Positions 31,889-38,613 of a stretch of DNA of 64,000 bases are shown here, piece after piece. The stretch's first letter is position 1, and every line of letters begins with the position of its first letter. This DNA comes from Angustibacter luteus. GTDB lineage: Bacteria; Actinomycetota; Actinomycetes; Actinomycetales; Angustibacteraceae. A model generated the notes under the pieces. It saw only the letters and a list, made by a program, of their open reading frames with translations, ran no database searches and was not told where the DNA came from. Location: contig NZ_BAABFP010000005.1 in NCBI RefSeq assembly GCF_039541115.1, forward strand, positions 542,447 through 606,446, written 5' to 3'. Made by a program: the position numbers and the translations under genes.

Positions 31889-33082
31889 CTAGTCCTCGAA
31901 GGTCTCGGACCCGGTCGGCTCGACGTGCTGGGTGTCGTTCATCCGCTGGCGCAGCTTGGCCAGCTCGTAGTACATCGTGCGCCGGGCGCGGTTGGAGTTC
32001 CCGAGCGGCTGGTGCTCGGTCAGGCTGTGCCACGGGTTGTACCGCAGCGCGTCCGCGAACCGCAGCTGCGCGTCGGAGTCGAAGCGCTGCCGCACCAGCC
32101 GCAGCTCGGCGACCGGAACATACGGGGACAGCCGCTCGGGCCAGTGCACGCAGGCGTTCTCGATCGGCATGCGGTGGGGATCGGTCTGCACCTGCACCAT
32201 GAAGTCCATCAGCCAGTCGCCGTCGGCCAGGGTGGAGGAGATCGCGTCCCGCAGGTAGTTCTCCTTCGCGTGCACCGGGATCCGCGACCGGCCCTGCTGT
32301 CGCGGCCTCAGCGAGTACTGCACGGCCTGGCCGGGCCCCAGCAGGAAGGGCACGTTGCTGTAGTAGCGATCCTCGACCGGGTTGGCGTGCATGGGCGAGT
32401 AGAGCAGCTGCATCGCCAGGTGAATCCAGTGCTTGGGGTTGAACGCGTAGCCCAGGGGCGCCTTCGCGCGCACCCAGCGCTGCATCTTCGCGTTCTCCTT
32501 GATGTCCGGGGTCACGAAGGCCGCGGGCGTCACCAGGATGAGGTCCTGGGTGCCCTGCTCGTCCTCCATCAGCTTCGGGCCAGGGACGCCCATCACCTTG
32601 ATCCCCACGGAGCACTGCCCGAAGTCCTCCAGGTCCGGCGGGGCGAAGGGTCCGGGCCCGGAGAACCGCACCCACGCCGGGTACACCCCGGGAGTCGCGA
32701 ACAGCCCGTGCCGCAGGGGCTCAGGGACGTCGTCGCGCACCGTGAACTCGGCCCGGAGCACGCCGTAGGTCTTGGTGTTGCCGAAGCGCTGGACCGCGCC
32801 GGGAAGCCAGTTCTCCCGCATGAACAGGGCGATCTCGTCGATGATCTGCTGGACCAGACGGTCCTCGTCGGGTAGGAGCCGCTCCTGGGCCAGCTCAAGG
32901 TGCTCGTCGCGCCGGAAGAGGTTCTGCAGCCACTGCGCGGACGCGAAGAGCGGCGGTCGCAGCCACCGGTCGAACCAGCGCCGGTACAGGAACTCGAAAC
33001 GGCGTTCCACCCTCCAGATCCAGAGCACCAGGTCGCTGAGCGGTCGCAGGACGTAGAACGTGAAGGCCCCCTGCGGGTTCAC
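31889..33082 (-). CDS. Catalase-related haem protein
   Basis: A 397-residue member of the catalase fold family related to catalase-like allene oxide synthases and hydroperoxide lyases. After an N-terminal amphipathic region (WIWRVERRFEFLYRRWFDRWLRP, perhaps membrane-associated) come TYGVLRAEFTVRDDVPEPLRHGLF, YPAWVRFSGPG, GIKVMGVPG, TQDLILVTPAAFVT and YNPWHSL...HQPLGNSNRARR, all family landmarks. Where ordinary small catalases have H-x-K-x-H-G, this protein has N102-T-K-T-Y-G. I do not find the classical R-x-F-x-Y proximal motif of large catalases. GTG start overlapping the DyP-gene stop (GTGA). Last gene of the leftward haem operon. It most likely converts fatty-acid hydroperoxides rather than H2O2, given the dioxygenase nearby (inference). 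Confidence 0.8.
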   Translation of the reverse strand: MNPQGAFTFYVLRPLSDLVLWIWRVERRFEFLYRRWFDRWLRPPLFASAQWLQNLFRRDEHLELAQERLLPDEDRLVQQIIDEIALFMRENWLPGAVQRFGNTKTYGVLRAEFTVRDDVPEPLRHGLFATPGVYPAWVRFSGPGPFAPPDLEDFGQCSVGIKVMGVPGPKLMEDEQGTQDLILVTPAAFVTPDIKENAKMQRWVRAKAPLGYAFNPKHWIHLAMQLLYSPMHANPVEDRYYSNVPFLLGPGQAVQYSLRPRQQGRSRIPVHAKENYLRDAISSTLADGDWLMDFMVQVQTDPHRMPIENACVHWPERLSPYVPVAELRLVRQRFDSDAQLRFADALRYNPWHSLTEHQPLGNSNRARRTMYYELAKLRQRMNDTQHVEPTGSETFED

Positions 33083-34500
33083 GTCGCCGCTCCTGGGCCC
33101 GCAGCCGCACGGGTCGCCAACCAGCGCAGGGCGCTGATACCGGGGAGGAAGAAGTAGCCGCCGCCGCGGACCCGCACGAACTGTGGCAGGTCCCGGTAGC
33201 GCCGGCGCACCGGTGTCGCCGGAGCCGAGAACGTCGCCCCGGCTCCCCGGCCGGTGCCGACCCGGACGCCGACCAGCGGGTCGGACGCGTCGTCCAGCAG
33301 GTTGAAGCCCGGGTCGTTCAGCCAGCTGTGCTGGATGAACTCGAACTGGCGGGCGAGGTTCGCGTTGAGGCAGAGGAAGTACAGCCCCTGCTCGACCGTG
33401 CCGTCCTCGCGCTGCGTCCGGTAGGCGCGGCCGCGGCGCAGGATCCGGTGCCGGCGATTGACGTCCAGCGAGGACGCCGTCCCGGGCTTCGGCGCCAGGG
33501 CGTCGCGGGGGTTGGCGCGTCGTACGTGCGCGCCGATCGGGCACCCCAGCCCATCCGCGTCGTTGGCGTGGTAGCCGAACTCGTTCGCCTCCGCGTGAGT
33601 GGGGTTGTCCTGCTGCGGGTCCAGCGTCAGCGGCGCACCGCTGGGCCAGCGGCCGACGAGCTGCGCACCGAGCAGTGCGGCGGCTGCCGGGTCGGCGCTG
33701 CCGTCGCTGCGCCGGGTGGCGTCGGCCAGGTACTCGTGGAAGGCGTCGACGTGCTGCTCCAGCTGGCGGAGCACGAGGTAGGAACCGTTGCGCCCGAGGT
33801 CGGCGGCGCCGTCCGCCCGGGGCAGCAGGCGTTCGGGGTCGGCCGAGTCGGCGAGCAGTGGCCGCTCCGTCAGCTGCCCGTACTCGTTGGGGTACCCGAG
33901 GACGAACTCCCCGGACCGGACGGCGCCGGGCGGGTCACTCGCCCCCGGCAGGCCGGTCAGCAGCGGCTGGGAGATGCCGTCGTGGAAGCCGAACGGCTCG
34001 TTCGGACCCAGCGTGTCCGTCGCGAGCTCGCCGGCCAGGGCGAGGCCGCTGCCCTCGGCCTGCGCGACCAGCTCTGTCTGCAGCTGGGTCAGTGCGGCGG
34101 CGCTGGCCGCGTAGACCAGCACCAGCACGTGCACCGTCGGCGTGGTCGGGCCACCCCAGTCCCAGGTGGCCGGACCGTCGTCCCCCTGGTCGCCCAGCAG
34201 CCGGCTCCGGTACGCCGTCGCCATGCCGGTGGTGAACTGCTGCGAGAAGCCGGCGGTCACCCCGTCGCCGGCGAGCGCGCGCACGCCCTCGGCGGTCAAC
34301 GCCACCTGGATCGCGCTGTCCTGCACCCGTTCCAGCGCCGAGGTGACCCGGCCCGCCCAGTCAGCCAGGACGGTCCCGGCGGCGGCGGACTCACGCACCT
34401 CCAGCAGGAGGAACGTGGCCTCGGGCAACGCCCCGTGTCCACGCAGGACCAGGCCCTGGATGTCCGCGAGGTCGAGGTCGCGGGTGGCTGTCGCGGTCAC
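33079..34500 (-). CDS. DyP-type haem peroxidase
   Basis: A 473-residue dye-decolorising-type peroxidase. The hallmark GFHDGIS is at 171-177 (distal Asp174), the proximal haem His is H325 in GCPIGAHVRRANPRD, and the distal Arg region and C-terminal YFFLP motif are present. Two tandem ferredoxin-like halves make up the fold. No twin-arginine signal, so it is cytoplasmic or associated with its operon partners. GTG start and stop both sit in GTGA overlaps with the neighbouring membrane-protein and catalase-related genes. DyPs oxidise a wide range of substrates using peroxide; here it may use hydroperoxides made by the divergent dioxygenase (inference). Confidence 0.93.
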   Translation of the reverse strand: MTATATRDLDLADIQGLVLRGHGALPEATFLLLEVRESAAAGTVLADWAGRVTSALERVQDSAIQVALTAEGVRALAGDGVTAGFSQQFTTGMATAYRSRLLGDQGDDGPATWDWGGPTTPTVHVLVLVYAASAAALTQLQTELVAQAEGSGLALAGELATDTLGPNEPFGFHDGISQPLLTGLPGASDPPGAVRSGEFVLGYPNEYGQLTERPLLADSADPERLLPRADGAADLGRNGSYLVLRQLEQHVDAFHEYLADATRRSDGSADPAAAALLGAQLVGRWPSGAPLTLDPQQDNPTHAEANEFGYHANDADGLGCPIGAHVRRANPRDALAPKPGTASSLDVNRRHRILRRGRAYRTQREDGTVEQGLYFLCLNANLARQFEFIQHSWLNDPGFNLLDDASDPLVGVRVGTGRGAGATFSAPATPVRRRYRDLPQFVRVRGGGYFFLPGISALRWLATRAAAGPGAAT

Positions 34501-35771
34501 AGCAGGGCCAGCCACTCGGCGGCCTGCGGCTGGTCCGGATGGCCCGCGAGGCCCCGGCGCAGGGCGGCGTTGCGGTCGATCCGGGGTGCGTGCAGCTCGG
34601 GGTAGGCGGAGTACCAGACCACCGTGGGCACCTGGTGACGGCGCAGGTAGCGCTTGAAGGCTGTCTCGTCGCGGGCGCCGCCGAACAGCAGCCAGCGGGT
34701 GGACGGGTAGCCGACACCGTTGCTGAACACCAGGTTCAACCCCCACGCCAGGCGGTCGATGAAGTCGTTCATGTAGCTCTCCTGGCTGCCGTCATAGCTG
34801 CTGGCGAAGACCAGCCGGCGCCCGCCGTCCAACGGCACCCACCGGGCGAAGTGCAACGACGTCACCCCGGCCAGCGTGTGGCTGTTGAACACCAGCCGGT
34901 TTCCCAGGTCGAGGCCGAGGAGAGCGACCCGCATCGTCGTGGCCCGGACGAATCCCGGTTTGACGAAACCCACTGCGGTGAACGGGTTCTGGGTGGCCCA
35001 GTCCTCGTACTGCTCCACGTCGTGGACGTGGTCGAGGTCCACCGGTCCGGTCTCCGGAACGTCCCGCAGCTCGTGCACCCGGAGCAGGAGCAGGAAGACC
35101 ACCAGCACCACGACGAGCAACGGCAGCAGGACGAGGGCGACGAGTCCCAGGGCCACGAGCACGACGAGCGAACGCAGCTTGGAGGGCGAACCCGCCCGCG
35201 AGGCGGGGTGGCGCGCCCACCCGAGGTCGGCCCGGTCCGTGACGGCGTCGCGCAGCCGGGCGTGCAGGGAACGGGCGTCAGCACCAGCACGGACGTTCGC
35301 CGGCAACCCGTCCACCTCGTCGGCCAGGGCCGCGCTCAGCGCCGCCTCGTCGAGGACCTGTCGCAGGGTCCGCCCGATCGTGTGCACGTACACGGCGGCC
35401 GGGCGCAGGCTGTGCTCGGTCAGCCAGGCCACGCGTCCCTGCACCGAGGGGTGGGCCGGGTATCCGAGGCACCGCCCGAACAGCGCGTCCAGGCCCGGTC
35501 CGGCCACGGTCGCCAGCTCCAGCAGGTGGGCGGGCTCGTCGGTGTCGACGTCGCACATGTAGACCAGCGACGGCGCGATGGTGCGACCCTCCAGGTCCTC
35601 GACCTCCTCCAGCACGAAGACCCGGGCGAAGTGCACGCCGTACAGGGACCCGAAGGGCAGCATCGAGTCGCCGCCACCGGCGGCGCGGATCTCGCGCAGC
35701 AGCGCGATCGTGTCCCCGACGGCGCCGTCGGCGAGGGTCGCCCGCACCGTGACGGCCGTCTGCCTCGTCAC
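34497..35771 (-). CDS. Membrane protein with duplicated HFAR domain, unknown
   Basis: A 424-residue protein with a central hydrophobic segment (about 195-230, LVVLVALGLVALVLLPLLVVVLVV) that makes one long or two short membrane spans. The flanking domains look homologous: N-terminal SLYGVHFARVFVLEE...PSLVYMCDVDTDEPAHLLEL and C-terminal SLHFARWVPLDGGRRLVFASSYDGSQESYMNDF. The alternating strand pattern with HFAR resembles the ferredoxin-like barrels of the DyP/chlorite-dismutase superfamily (inference). It overlaps the DyP gene by four bases and follows the 161-residue unknown gene by four. Possibly an anchor or accessory for the peroxidases. Confidence 0.7.
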   Translation of the reverse strand: MTRQTAVTVRATLADGAVGDTIALLREIRAAGGGDSMLPFGSLYGVHFARVFVLEEVEDLEGRTIAPSLVYMCDVDTDEPAHLLELATVAGPGLDALFGRCLGYPAHPSVQGRVAWLTEHSLRPAAVYVHTIGRTLRQVLDEAALSAALADEVDGLPANVRAGADARSLHARLRDAVTDRADLGWARHPASRAGSPSKLRSLVVLVALGLVALVLLPLLVVVLVVFLLLLRVHELRDVPETGPVDLDHVHDVEQYEDWATQNPFTAVGFVKPGFVRATTMRVALLGLDLGNRLVFNSHTLAGVTSLHFARWVPLDGGRRLVFASSYDGSQESYMNDFIDRLAWGLNLVFSNGVGYPSTRWLLFGGARDETAFKRYLRRHQVPTVVWYSAYPELHAPRIDRNAALRRGLAGHPDQPQAAEWLALL

Positions 35772-35775
35772 GCGG

Positions 35776-36261
35776 TCAGCTCTCGCCGACCGGACTGCGC
35801 AACGTGAACCAGCCGACCCGCTTGCGCCACATCCACACCACGCCGAGATAGAGGCCCGGTGCGACCAGCCGGATCTCGTCGCGCACCATCCGGGCCACCT
35901 CGGACGTTCGCGAGTAGTCCAGGACCACGCAGTCGCGGTCGTCGACCCAGCTCGGGACGACGTCCAGCTGGGCCGGGATCAGCCGCAGCCGCAGGGGGCT
36001 GACCTTGTTCTTGAGCAGGCGGTGCTCGTGGCTGACGACCTTGCCCTGCCAGGCGACCACGTAGATGGCGGCGGCGAGCGGTTTGGCGACCGCAGTGCCC
36101 GGGAACATCAGCACGGTGCCGCGCATGTTGCCGCTCGGGACGTCGCCGGAGGGGCTGACCCGGAACAGCGCGTCGAGCTCGCGGTTGGTCATGGCGAGCA
36201 GCCGGGGCTCGTCGACCAGCAGACCGACGGGCGCAGGCTCTCCGGAGGGTTCAGCGGTCAT
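35776..36261 (-). CDS. Conserved protein of unknown function in haem operon
   Basis: A 161-residue protein starting at the ATG at 36261; the open frame extends to 36360 but the extra N-terminus is Arg-rich and overlaps the divergent leader. Core segments are RVSPSGDVPSGNMRGTVL (Gly-rich), AAAIYVVAWQGKVVS, DYSRTSEVARMVRDEIRLVAPGLYLGVVWMWR and a closing strand RVGWFTL. The RDEIR...PGLYLG pattern is one I associate with a family found near haem peroxidases, with no assigned function. It could be a lipid- or ligand-binding partner. First gene of the leftward haem operon. Confidence 0.65.
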   Translation of the reverse strand: MTAEPSGEPAPVGLLVDEPRLLAMTNRELDALFRVSPSGDVPSGNMRGTVLMFPGTAVAKPLAAAIYVVAWQGKVVSHEHRLLKNKVSPLRLRLIPAQLDVVPSWVDDRDCVVLDYSRTSEVARMVRDEIRLVAPGLYLGVVWMWRKRVGWFTLRSPVGES

Positions 36262-36422
36262 CGACGCGCTCCTCTCGTCGACCGACCGGACGACGTCCGG
36301 CCGGACGATTCCACGATCCTCTGCCCTTGATCGTCTTGTAAAGGAGATGCCCGTTGACACTGCTGGCCGCGCGCTGCGACTGTGGCCATGCCGTCAGGCC
36401 GCCTGCGAAAGGGGCGCAGCCC
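36262..36422. promoter_or_regulatory. Divergent promoter region of the haem-protein locus
   Basis: This 161-base interval separates the leftward peroxidase operon from the rightward dioxygenase pair. It contains a perfect TTGACA at 36354-36359 (+ strand), although a good -10 at the right distance is not evident, and AAGGAG at 36341-36346 that could instead be a ribosome site for a TTG start at 36354. It should carry promoters for both arms, so co-regulation is likely. Confidence 0.45.
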
Positions 36423-36785
36423 ATGGATCCGAGCCTGGCCCGGAAGCTGCTCGCGGCCGTGCGCCTGGTCAACGGGGTGCTCGGCCTGCTGGCCCCGTCT
36501 TTCCTGCTGCGCCGTCTGGGGACGGACCCGGCGGTCGACCGCTCCGGCTACTACCCGTTCCGGATGTTCGGCGTCCGCACCATCGTGATCGGGGCCGACC
36601 TCCTGCTGCTGCAGGGTGAGCAGCGCCGGCGCGCCGTCCGCCTCGCCGTCCTGATCCACGCGTCGGACACGGTGTCCGCCGCCACGGCCGGGCTGCGCGG
36701 CGACCTCCCCCGCAAGCCCGCCGTCATCACCACGGCGATCTCCGCCACCAACACCGCGCTCGCGATCATCGCCACCCGGGAGTAG
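36423..36785 (+). CDS. Small hydrophobic protein paired with the dioxygenase
   Basis: A 120-residue protein with three weakly hydrophobic segments (LVNGVLGLLAPSFLL, FGVRTIVIGADLLLL, a late ITTAISATNTALAIIA). The pattern LVNGVLGLLAPSFLLRRLG...YPFRMFGVRTIVIGADLL resembles small DUF4267-like membrane proteins, though I am not certain. The ATG has AAAGGGG about nine bases upstream; the alternative TTG at 36354, with AAGGAG seven bases ahead, would add 23 residues (containing CDCGH). It ends four bases before the dioxygenase start, so it is surely co-expressed with it. Possibly a membrane partner. Confidence 0.65.
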   Translation: MDPSLARKLLAAVRLVNGVLGLLAPSFLLRRLGTDPAVDRSGYYPFRMFGVRTIVIGADLLLLQGEQRRRAVRLAVLIHASDTVSAATAGLRGDLPRKPAVITTAISATNTALAIIATRE

Positions 36786-36789
36786 CGCC

Positions 36790-38613
36790 ATGGCACGAAC
36801 GTCTCCGTACCGCTCCGGCCTGGTCTGGACGGTGTACGACCGGATCTGCGAACGGATCGACCGCCGGGTCGGCTGGGACAAGCTCCCCCGCCCGCTGGCG
36901 CTGCTGCTCCTCATCGGCATCCGCAACAACCTGCGCCGCGAGAACCTCTTCGACACGAACGTCGCGCCCGCCACGAACCTGCCGCCGCTCTCGGAGCCGT
37001 CCGCGCAGACCCGGTCCCAGCGCACGCCCGATGGCACCTACAACGACCTCGAGACCCCACGCATGGGCATGGCGGGAGCCCGGTTCGGCCGCAACGTCCC
37101 GCTCGCCGCAGGGGCAGCCGAGACCGGCGACCGGCTGATGACCCCCAACCCGCGGGTGGTCAGCCGCCGGCTGATGACCCGGACGACCTTCCAGCCGGCG
37201 ACGACCGTGAACGTCCTGGCGGCCACCTGGATCCAGTTCATGGTCAAGGACTGGTTCTCGCACGGCGCCGGCGACGCGACCCGGCCGTTCGACGTGCCGT
37301 TGCCCGACGGCGATCCCTGGCCGACTCCGCCCATGCTGGTCCCGCGGACGCTGGCGGACCCCACCCGCAGCGGTCAGGAGGACGGGTACCCGCCCACCTT
37401 CACGAACATCAACACGGCCTGGTGGGACGGCTCCTCCATCTACGGGAGCAGCACCGACCAGCAGCGGGTCATCCGCTCCGGCGTCGACGGCAAGCTGAAC
37501 GTGTCCGCCGACGGCATGCTGATCCTGCCCGACGACCCGAGCCTGAACCCCACGCTGGTCCCCGGGTTCTGGACCGGACTGGCGATGATGGGCGGCCTGT
37601 TCACGCTGGAGCACAACGCGGTCTGCGACCACCTGAAGGCGGCCAACCCGACCTGGTCGGACGAGGAGCTCTTCCAGCGCGCCCGCCTGGTGGTCTGCGC
37701 GCTCATCGCCAAGATCCACACGGTCGAGTGGACACCCGCCATCATCAGCCACCCGACCACGGTGACCGCCCTGCGCGCGAACTGGTTCGGGCTGGTCGGC
37801 GAGCGCTTCACCCGAACCTTCGGCCGCATCAGCGGCAGCGAGATCCTCAGCGGGATCCCGGGCTCGGAGACCGACCACTACGGCGTGCCCTACTCCCTCA
37901 CCGAGGAGTTCTCGATCGTCTACCGGATGCACCCGCTGATCCCGGACGACTACGCGGTGCGGTCCGCGGTCGACGACGCGCACATCGCCGACTACACGTT
38001 CCGGGACCTGGCCGGGCCGGCCGGCGGTCAGGTCCTGCAGGACGTCGCCATGGCCGACCTGCTGTACAGCTTCGGTACGGCCAACCCCGGCGCCATCGTG
38101 CTGAACAACTTCCCCCGCTTCCTCCAGGAGTTCGAGCGCCCGGACGGCAAGCTGGCCGACCTGGCGGCCACCGACATCCTGCGCACCCGCGAGCTGGGCG
38201 TCCCGCGCTACAACGAGTTCCGGCGGCTGCTGCACCTCGACCCGGCGACCAGCTTCGCCGACCTCACCGGCGGGGACCACGGGCTGGCCGCCACGCTGGA
38301 CGACGTCTACGGCGGCGACCTCGAGGCCGTGGACACGATCGTCGGCATGTTCGCCGAGCAGCGCCCGACCGGCTTCGCGTTCAGCGACACGGCGTTCCGG
38401 ATCTTCATCCTGATGGCGTCGCGGCGGCTGAACAGCGACCGGTTCCTCAGCTCCGACTTCACTCCCGAGGTCTACAGCCCGGCCGGGTTCGCCTGGGTGC
38501 GGGACAACGGGTTCACGTCCGTCCTGCTGCGCCACTACCCCCAGCTGCGGCCGTGCCTGCACGGCGTCAAGAACCCGTTCGCCCCCTGGGTGAGCAGTAG
38601 CGGGCCGGCCTGA
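36790..38613 (+). CDS. Alpha-dioxygenase/cyclooxygenase-like haem peroxidase
   Basis: A 607-residue animal-haem-peroxidase-superfamily protein closest to plant alpha-dioxygenases, which insert O2 into fatty acids. Landmarks in order: WIQFMVKDWFSH (147-158), WWDGSSIYGS (211-220), LEHNAVCDHL (273-282), ALIAKIHTVEW (304-314), LRANWFGLVG, and YSLTEEFSIVYRMHPL (368-383), with Y378 at the catalytic-radical position and H381 as proximal ligand. The Q-x3-H distal His of this family is Q149-x3-Lys153 here. The N-terminus has a hydrophobic/amphipathic stretch (PLALLLLIGI) that may bind membranes. The length is close to the plant enzymes (~620-640). Coupled to the small gene upstream. Confidence 0.88.
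   Translation: MARTSPYRSGLVWTVYDRICERIDRRVGWDKLPRPLALLLLIGIRNNLRRENLFDTNVAPATNLPPLSEPSAQTRSQRTPDGTYNDLETPRMGMAGARFGRNVPLAAGAAETGDRLMTPNPRVVSRRLMTRTTFQPATTVNVLAATWIQFMVKDWFSHGAGDATRPFDVPLPDGDPWPTPPMLVPRTLADPTRSGQEDGYPPTFTNINTAWWDGSSIYGSSTDQQRVIRSGVDGKLNVSADGMLILPDDPSLNPTLVPGFWTGLAMMGGLFTLEHNAVCDHLKAANPTWSDEELFQRARLVVCALIAKIHTVEWTPAIISHPTTVTALRANWFGLVGERFTRTFGRISGSEILSGIPGSETDHYGVPYSLTEEFSIVYRMHPLIPDDYAVRSAVDDAHIADYTFRDLAGPAGGQVLQDVAMADLLYSFGTANPGAIVLNNFPRFLQEFERPDGKLADLAATDILRTRELGVPRYNEFRRLLHLDPATSFADLTGGDHGLAATLDDVYGGDLEAVDTIVGMFAEQRPTGFAFSDTAFRIFILMASRRLNSDRFLSSDFTPEVYSPAGFAWVRDNGFTSVLLRHYPQLRPCLHGVKNPFAPWVSSSGPA

Follow-up and report, generated by a model that had tools for sequence, protein, structure and literature searches.

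The closest described relatives of the enzyme studied here are the alpha-dioxygenases of plants and cyanobacteria (rice 4kvj and 4kvl, Arabidopsis 4hhr and 4hhs, CalDOX, and LepDOX). They share with it a common fold, the catalytic Tyr, the proximal haem His, the fatty-acid-binding residues, a WIQF motif, and a second conserved His. In the rice enzyme, the substrate and catalytic residues are H311, T316, F375, Y379, H382, F552, and R559 (PMC8720084; this and the other PMC articles are cited from part of their text). The bacterial alpha-dioxygenases in the same article are a broad family that is probably the same as ours. The distal haem His is called "partially conserved" across that family, and the part of the article cited here makes no statement on the replacing residues, a clade pattern, a gene cassette, or fusions (PMC8720084).

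Three other systems bear a resemblance. Like our enzyme, the 10S-DOX of Nostoc punctiforme is a COX-superfamily dioxygenase paired with a catalase-related protein, in that case a hydroperoxide lyase, and its motif F143tdsF, read against F205thqF of COX as printed, places a non-His residue at the distal position (PMC13049297). It differs in that it oxygenates C10 rather than C2, its partner is encoded by a separate gene, and the cited part of the article mentions no DyP cassette (PMC13049297). In the coral allene oxide synthase-lipoxygenase and hydroperoxide lyase-lipoxygenase fusions (3dy5, 1u5u), a catalase-fold domain is joined to a hydroperoxide-making dioxygenase. There, however, the oxygenase is a lipoxygenase, and the coral synthase retains the distal H67 where the cassette protein described below has Asn (PMC5617202). 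Finally, DyP-type peroxidases and chlorite dismutases have distal Arg sites, in which a cationic residue acts on an O-O or Cl-O bond (PMC6153280, PMC7611857). Their fold is unrelated, and DyP has a distal Asp base in addition.

We analysed a 64,000-nucleotide stretch of DNA (the window, meaning the whole of that stretch) that encodes an alpha-dioxygenase-type protein (Table 1). It differs from the plant and cyanobacterial enzymes in having Lys for the distal His and in lying in a bacterial cassette with a catalase-fold protein and a DyP. Partial conservation of the distal His was already known (PMC8720084). In the open-access full texts that we searched, outside which most subscription papers lie, we found neither the Arg/Lys replacement nor the cassette nor a catalase-alpha-dioxygenase fusion described, and the cited parts of PMC13118837, PMC11719350, PMC12284513, PMC4420034, and PMC9305512 contain nothing on distal replacements. 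How far the peroxidase site of a COX-superfamily oxygenase is required has long been asked, and mainly point mutants have been used to probe it. Nature has swapped His and Arg/Lys at least five times, in either direction; these swaps, the L008/L046 pair, and the genomes that hold both types make the question directly testable with natural enzymes. In addition, the cassette and the fusions hint at an uncharacterised bacterial oxylipin pathway and point to new fatty-aldehyde biocatalysts.

Table 1. Positions of the features described in the text; those with an L handle refer to the respective locus, all others to the window
Feature	Position	Strand	Basis
Predicted fatty acid dioxygenase of the alpha-dioxygenase type, 607 aa, with Animal haem peroxidase fold	36790..38613	+	Pfam, PDB matches, AlphaFold2 model
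Gln149 of the Q-x3-H/K/R motif	37234..37236	+	Q in 135/136 rows
AAG codon, Lys153, aligned with the distal haem His (rice His157)	37246..37248	+	Codon read and phmmer alignment
His158, separate conserved His, no shifted distal His	37261..37263	+	H in 136/136 rows, with any letter at 153
Catalytic Tyr378 through proximal haem ligand His381	37921..37932	+	Each kept in 138/138 rows with a letter
Predicted catalase-fold protein, 397 aa, Asn for the catalase distal His	31889..33082	-	Family profile to 3e4w; predicted model
DyP-type peroxidase	33079..34500	-	TIGR01413 1.7e-31; PDB 8re3 5e-52
Membrane-type protein, 424 aa, family unknown, cassette member	34497..35771	-	Adjoins DyP in 16 loci (best 80 of 578)
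Small cassette protein of at most 194 aa, start uncertain	35776..36360	-	Beside 11/57 Arg/Lys-type, 1/5 His-type loci
Small DUF4267-like protein, immediately upstream of the dioxygenase	36423..36785	+	Pfam DUF4267 2e-4, under the curated cut-off
Catalase-alpha-dioxygenase fusions, catalase first	L010:1388-4288, L133:421-3315, L134:1456-4335, L095:277-3282, L135:1-3339		Single ORFs
Catalase-alpha-dioxygenase fusions, catalase first	L152:1528-4659, L153:4747-7599, L154:4717-7620, L155:4660-7611, L221:510-2900		Single ORFs
Alpha-dioxygenase-catalase fusion, catalase last	L090:1414-4380		Single ORF

Lysine aligned with the distal haem histidine

Pfam returned a sole match for the dioxygenase ORF, An_peroxidase (3e-101). 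In a phmmer search of the PDB, the closest solved relatives were rice 4kvj and 4kvl and Arabidopsis 4hhr, with E values from 1e-117 to 1e-113 (1.2e-117 for 4kvj_A). The AlphaFold2 model had a mean pLDDT of 89.4 and was superposed by VIA-align on 4kvj with a Z of 43.5 and an rmsd of 2.2 across 568 residues, at 38% identity. Both sequence and fold place the protein in the alpha-dioxygenase family of the COX-peroxidase superfamily. As the initial annotation had stated, the catalytic Tyr378 and the proximal haem His381 (VYRMH) are retained, here and in every readable row of the family alignment (Table 1). The fatty-acid-binding or stacking residues H310, T315, R546, F374, and F539, from the list in PMC8720084, are present as well. 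The distal haem His is the exception, with Lys153 in its place. Since that His is described as only partially conserved (PMC8720084), its loss does not bar the protein from the family, and judging from its sequence we regard the protein as an alpha-dioxygenase-type enzyme. Compared with COX or a haem peroxidase capable of peroxidase turnover, it lacks the distal His that acts as the acid-base catalyst, and its motif has gained no new His elsewhere. The genome from which the window comes has this single member of the family.

The motif of the protein reads WIQFMVKDWFSH. In the phmmer alignments with 4kvj, 4kvl, and 4hhr, Lys153 faces the distal His of the plant motif (WIQFMVHDWMDH / WIQFMIHDWIDH), and His158 pairs with the second plant His, five residues further on. 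Because His158 has a plant counterpart of its own, the alignment cannot be slid to restore a distal His. The proposal that Lys replaces this residue is therefore borne out, codon 153 being an AAG opposite the plant His, and by alignment Lys153 would be placed over the haem. A sequencing error at the codon is very unlikely, because Lys, always spelled AAG, recurs in 8 of 136 rows and most relatives carry Arg. We also considered that His158 might swing in as the distal His. It is conserved throughout the alignment, and the stretch around it is not helical in the AlphaFold2 model. However, it is equally conserved where residue 153 is His, and nothing changes at 158 when 153 switches. As the plant enzymes also carry both residues, His158 would have another role, and we give the swinging His next to no weight.

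Distribution and history of the basic residue

Relatives were gathered from genome contigs, from whole genomes (Actinomycetota, Cyanobacteria, Chloroflexota, and Acidobacteriota), and from plasmids; a search of viral contigs for relatives returned none. The contig sample consisted of the best 80 of 578 candidates and was biased, as one of its seed patterns was QFMVKDWF, the Lys motif. For this reason, the whole-genome finds were counted apart; three centre genomes in that sampling had been chosen for already holding a copy. The family alignment was built from 162 ORFs scoring above 250 bits, minus near-duplicates and the window's own copies, and comprised 140 rows including the window. Four rows are fragments without the motif, and 136 carry a letter at position 153: Arg in 78, His in 49, Lys in 8, and Asn in 1. 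All but one of the 87 non-His letters are thus Arg or Lys. Among 62 readable copies in the whole-genome samples, we counted 38 His, 20 Arg, 3 Lys, and 1 Asn (23/62 Arg or Lys). Basic copies made up 17 of 38 in Actinomycetota, 4 of 11 in Chloroflexota, and 2 of 4 in Acidobacteriota, with 0 of 3 in Cyanobacteria and 0 of 6 among second copies. A reading of the Lys as a lone oddity does not hold, since the basic replacement spans a whole clade of relatives. As aligned, the window enzyme is one of a large branch of bacterial proteins whose distal His has given way to Arg or Lys and whose other fatty-acid-oxidation residues are kept. Arg-type and His-type copies coexist in single genomes (L116/L223, L121/L224, L086/L220, and L122/L222) and, in L010, inside a single locus.

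Two smaller features of this region were observed. L064 and L084, probably one sequence found twice, have Asn at the distal position instead of His, Arg, or Lys. The Asp that follows the distal residue (column 154) is present in 86/86 Arg/Lys rows, and Gly or Asn replaces it in 11/49 His rows.

The history of position 153 was followed on a tree of 134 of the 140 rows, computed by a quick method with columns 153 and 469 left out and rooted at its midpoint; 69 of its 131 branches were starred and 34 were open. His and basic residues interchanged at least 5 times with the Asn row set aside, or 6 times if Asn is counted as non-basic, and the site treated as four letters changed 10 times. Among the basic rows there were 4 changes between Arg and Lys, with Lys derived repeatedly from Arg. 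Because the outer branches of the midpoint-rooted tree carry His alone, we take His to be ancestral; L046, and L067 together with L077, are probable reversions to His within the Arg clade. His is encoded by CAC or CAT. Arg is spelled with five kinds of codon (CGC 41, CGG 16, CGT 12, AGG 7, and CGA 2), which argues that the charge at 153 has been maintained across synonymous change. One transition turns His into Arg (CAC to CGC), and one more turns AGG into AAG.

Residue 469 was a candidate for co-evolution with 153, being Arg in 46 of 49 His-type rows and non-Arg in most Arg/Lys rows. However, it changed once on the tree, and independent pairs gave no support for a coupling between the two positions. 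We attribute the difference to clade signal and claim no compensation.

Probable activity and proposed radical priming

The initial annotation had left room for an inactive enzyme. We found that the equivalents of the seven rice residues are kept in all readable Arg/Lys rows (84 to 86, depending on the residue), apart from a single row with Tyr at H310 and a single row with Ser at T315. For close Arg/Arg and Lys/Lys pairs, dN/dS ranged from 0.085 to 0.311, and for His/His pairs from 0.073 to 0.185; the mixed pair of L008 (Arg) and L046 (His), 92% identical, had a dN/dS of 0.188. Purifying selection acts on the Arg/Lys-type enzymes. A catalytically dead or non-oxygenating family member would be in keeping with the loss of the distal His, and the catalase-fold partner lacks its distal His too. 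Such a protein would be hard to reconcile with the invariance of Tyr378 and His381, the almost invariant substrate residues, dN/dS values far under 1, and the presence of the basic type in the Actinomycetota, Chloroflexota, and Acidobacteriota samples, and we consider it very unlikely. The conserved residues, the low dN/dS, and the coexistence of Arg-type and His-type copies in genomes favour a working variant. The Arg/Lys-type dioxygenase is probably active, with a radical that is started differently and more slowly; a different start had been suggested for the window enzyme from the outset and may well be so. In our literature search, we found no Arg- or Lys-type enzyme that had been assayed.

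Distal His mutants of plant alpha-dioxygenases reportedly lose much of their activity. The expectation that loss of this His should cripple ordinary peroxide activation is nonetheless weakened, as the H203Q variant of the fungal 8R-DOX "only reduced catalysis" (PMC13049297). H203Q is a neutral substitution, however, and a cation above the iron could behave differently or ligate the iron. In the D143A variant of DyP, which is left with the distal Arg only, Compound I forms at 1.9e3 versus 6.2e6 per M per s, some three thousand times slower (PMC6153280). By analogy with H203Q, 10S-DOX (PMC13049297), and this DyP variant, slow, electrostatically assisted priming at Lys153 is plausible.

With somewhat better than even confidence, we favour an enzyme that is active as an alpha-dioxygenase and belongs to a bacterial sub-branch with a cationic distal residue; this residue would prime the radical slowly, and the hydroperoxide would be handled by the cassette partners. 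For the Lys-type enzyme we infer activity, product, electrostatic role, and partner reactions as follows. Tyr378 would remove the alpha-hydrogen from the fatty acid, as happens in the plant enzymes, and O2 would add, giving the 2-hydroperoxide. Since the Tyr radical would be regenerated in each turnover, the haem would have to react with peroxide just now and then, for priming. Lys153 would be unable to replace His as an acid-base catalyst at neutral pH; it would polarise the bound peroxide electrostatically, like the lone distal Arg of a DyP without its Asp. Priming would be slow and ordinary peroxidase turnover largely gone. Processing of the 2-hydroperoxide would then fall to the two cassette partners, the catalase-fold protein and the DyP.

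Alternatively, the basic residue at 153 may reflect substrate binding and not priming. In one such reading, Arg or Lys would hold a peroxy fatty acid, such as a 2-hydroperoxy acid, by its carboxylate on the distal side, so that the peroxidase site is tuned to the enzyme's own product, and the carboxylate of the substrate would supply the acid-base function, as it does in CYP152 peroxygenases. The near-absence of any non-His letter other than a cation, as if charge were required, fits this idea, and the expected product bears its hydroperoxide adjacent to the carboxylate. However, the catalytic Tyr of plant alpha-dioxygenases lies on the proximal side of the haem. It is near this Tyr that the plant enzymes bind the acid substrate (residue list in PMC8720084), and distal access for a long-chain acid is putative. 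We regard carboxylate binding as unlikely, if worth keeping in view. A further alternative is that Lys or Arg ligates the ferric iron, so that the haem rests in a six-coordinate form until substrate or the redox state switches it on. A long, flexible cation is aligned at the distal position and Lys is a possible haem iron ligand, but most of the clade has Arg, which is a very poor one, and ligation appears highly improbable to us.

The cassette and its catalase-fold member

On the minus strand, the genes are ordered catalase-fold, DyP, the 34497 ORF, and the 35776 ORF; the DUF4267-like gene and the dioxygenase follow on the plus strand. From the inferred starts, the DyP gene overlaps both the catalase-fold gene and the 34497 gene by 4 bases each. 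The start of the DUF4267-like gene is uncertain, its frame being open from 36354. The 35776 product had no Pfam or NCBIfam match, and the 34497 product had no match in Pfam or NCBIfam and no convincing one in the PDB. An aldo/keto reductase identity for the latter was rejected, as the matches were weak and partial (E 0.02) and were taken as noise. In the 34497 product, an HFAR motif occurs in similar form in both halves, and the part between them is membrane-like.

When the neighbours of the window dioxygenase were searched with tblastn, the DyP and the 34497 ORF were found in 16 of the 80 loci (best 80 of 578), and the catalase-fold gene was present in 14 of these 16. The dioxygenases of the 16 loci were of the Arg type in 13, the His type in 2, and the Lys type in 1. 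In a clustering of predicted neighbours that was independent of the window, four families ranked highest among the best 80 of 578 loci, namely DUF4267, 34497, DyP, and catalase-fold; the 34497, DyP, and catalase-fold families each occurred in 15 loci, as did a GMC oxidoreductase family. For linkage counts, we kept the 62 of these 80 loci in which either flank extends for 6 kb or more and dropped 18 with short flanks, including the His-type cassette locus L070. The DUF4267-like gene lies beside the dioxygenase in 31 of the 62.

The initial annotation had proposed the DyP as a partner that oxidises Tyr378 instead of the missing distal His. The DyP is intact, retaining the catalytic Asp of GFHDG and the HVRR motif in a motif alignment, and together with the 34497 ORF it is a conserved neighbour in the 16 loci. 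However, the same cassette surrounds the His-type enzymes L069 and L070, and the DyP was present in 11 of 57 Arg/Lys-type versus 1 of 5 His-type loci (Fisher p = 1, five His loci giving little power). Most Arg/Lys loci have no DyP nearby, and when 29 genomes were searched, 28 had a DyP and the Arg-type genome of L014 had no match at E 0.001. In addition, oxidation of the buried Tyr would need long-range transfer from protein to protein. The proposal thus finds no support and is, in our judgement, scarcely credible; the DyP is a real member of the cassette and no evident substitute for the lost His. Its place in the mechanism that we favour would be downstream, in the processing of the 2-hydroperoxide.

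The catalase-fold protein alone had no Pfam match. The profile of its family matched the Mycobacterium catalase-related protein 3e4w (5e-6) and, weakly, catalase and the coral allene oxide synthase. In VIA, its model (pLDDT 87.6) gave a Z of 26.1 to 3dy5 (coral allene oxide synthase, the best), 26.0 to 3e4y, and about 24 to catalases, and among the matches listed were 50 catalase-type entries with Z from 22.5 to 26.1. As modelled, the protein has a fold that comes closest to those of coral allene oxide synthase and the small catalase-related proteins. It lacks the distal His of catalase: Asn occupies this position in 16/16 readable cassette members, the window's included, and His in 16/16 other members of the family. 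Two cassette fragments without the first stretch were not readable at the position. The proximal Tyr of R-x3-Y, which we take to be the haem ligand, is kept in 34/34 rows.

A catalase-like domain and the dioxygenase also share a single ORF in 11 of 49 His-type rows versus 0 of 85 basic rows (the window apart). The catalase part comes first in ten of these fusions and last in L090, and all are His-type. For L010 and L152, Pfam confirmed the two domains. For L095 and L090 it confirmed the dioxygenase domain alone, and the catalase part rests on BLAST. Such a fusion may be undescribed so far. A bolder version of the pathway would comprise, where the cassette is present, two haem enzymes, the cation-type dioxygenase and the catalase-fold enzyme without a distal His, neither of which performs classical peroxide heterolysis. 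The radical would be primed by the carboxylate-bearing product, the partner would cleave the O-O bond homolytically, and His-type relatives would be coupled to theirs by gene fusion. As a whole, we offer this two-enzyme scheme as speculation that is decidedly unlikely to be right.

Other oxidative enzymes were seen near the dioxygenases. A GMC oxidoreductase is encoded nearby in 15/80 loci (L006, L008, L009, L010, L012, L019, L020, L033, L040, L041, L043, L046, L054, L058, and L072) and is a possible source of H2O2 or a possible 2-hydroxy-acid oxidase. In the plasmid loci L149, L151, and L154, the alpha-dioxygenases lie near a patatin-like phospholipase, thiamine-pyrophosphate enzymes, and a GMC or FAD-linked oxidase, which suggests a bacterial fatty acid alpha-oxidation pathway.
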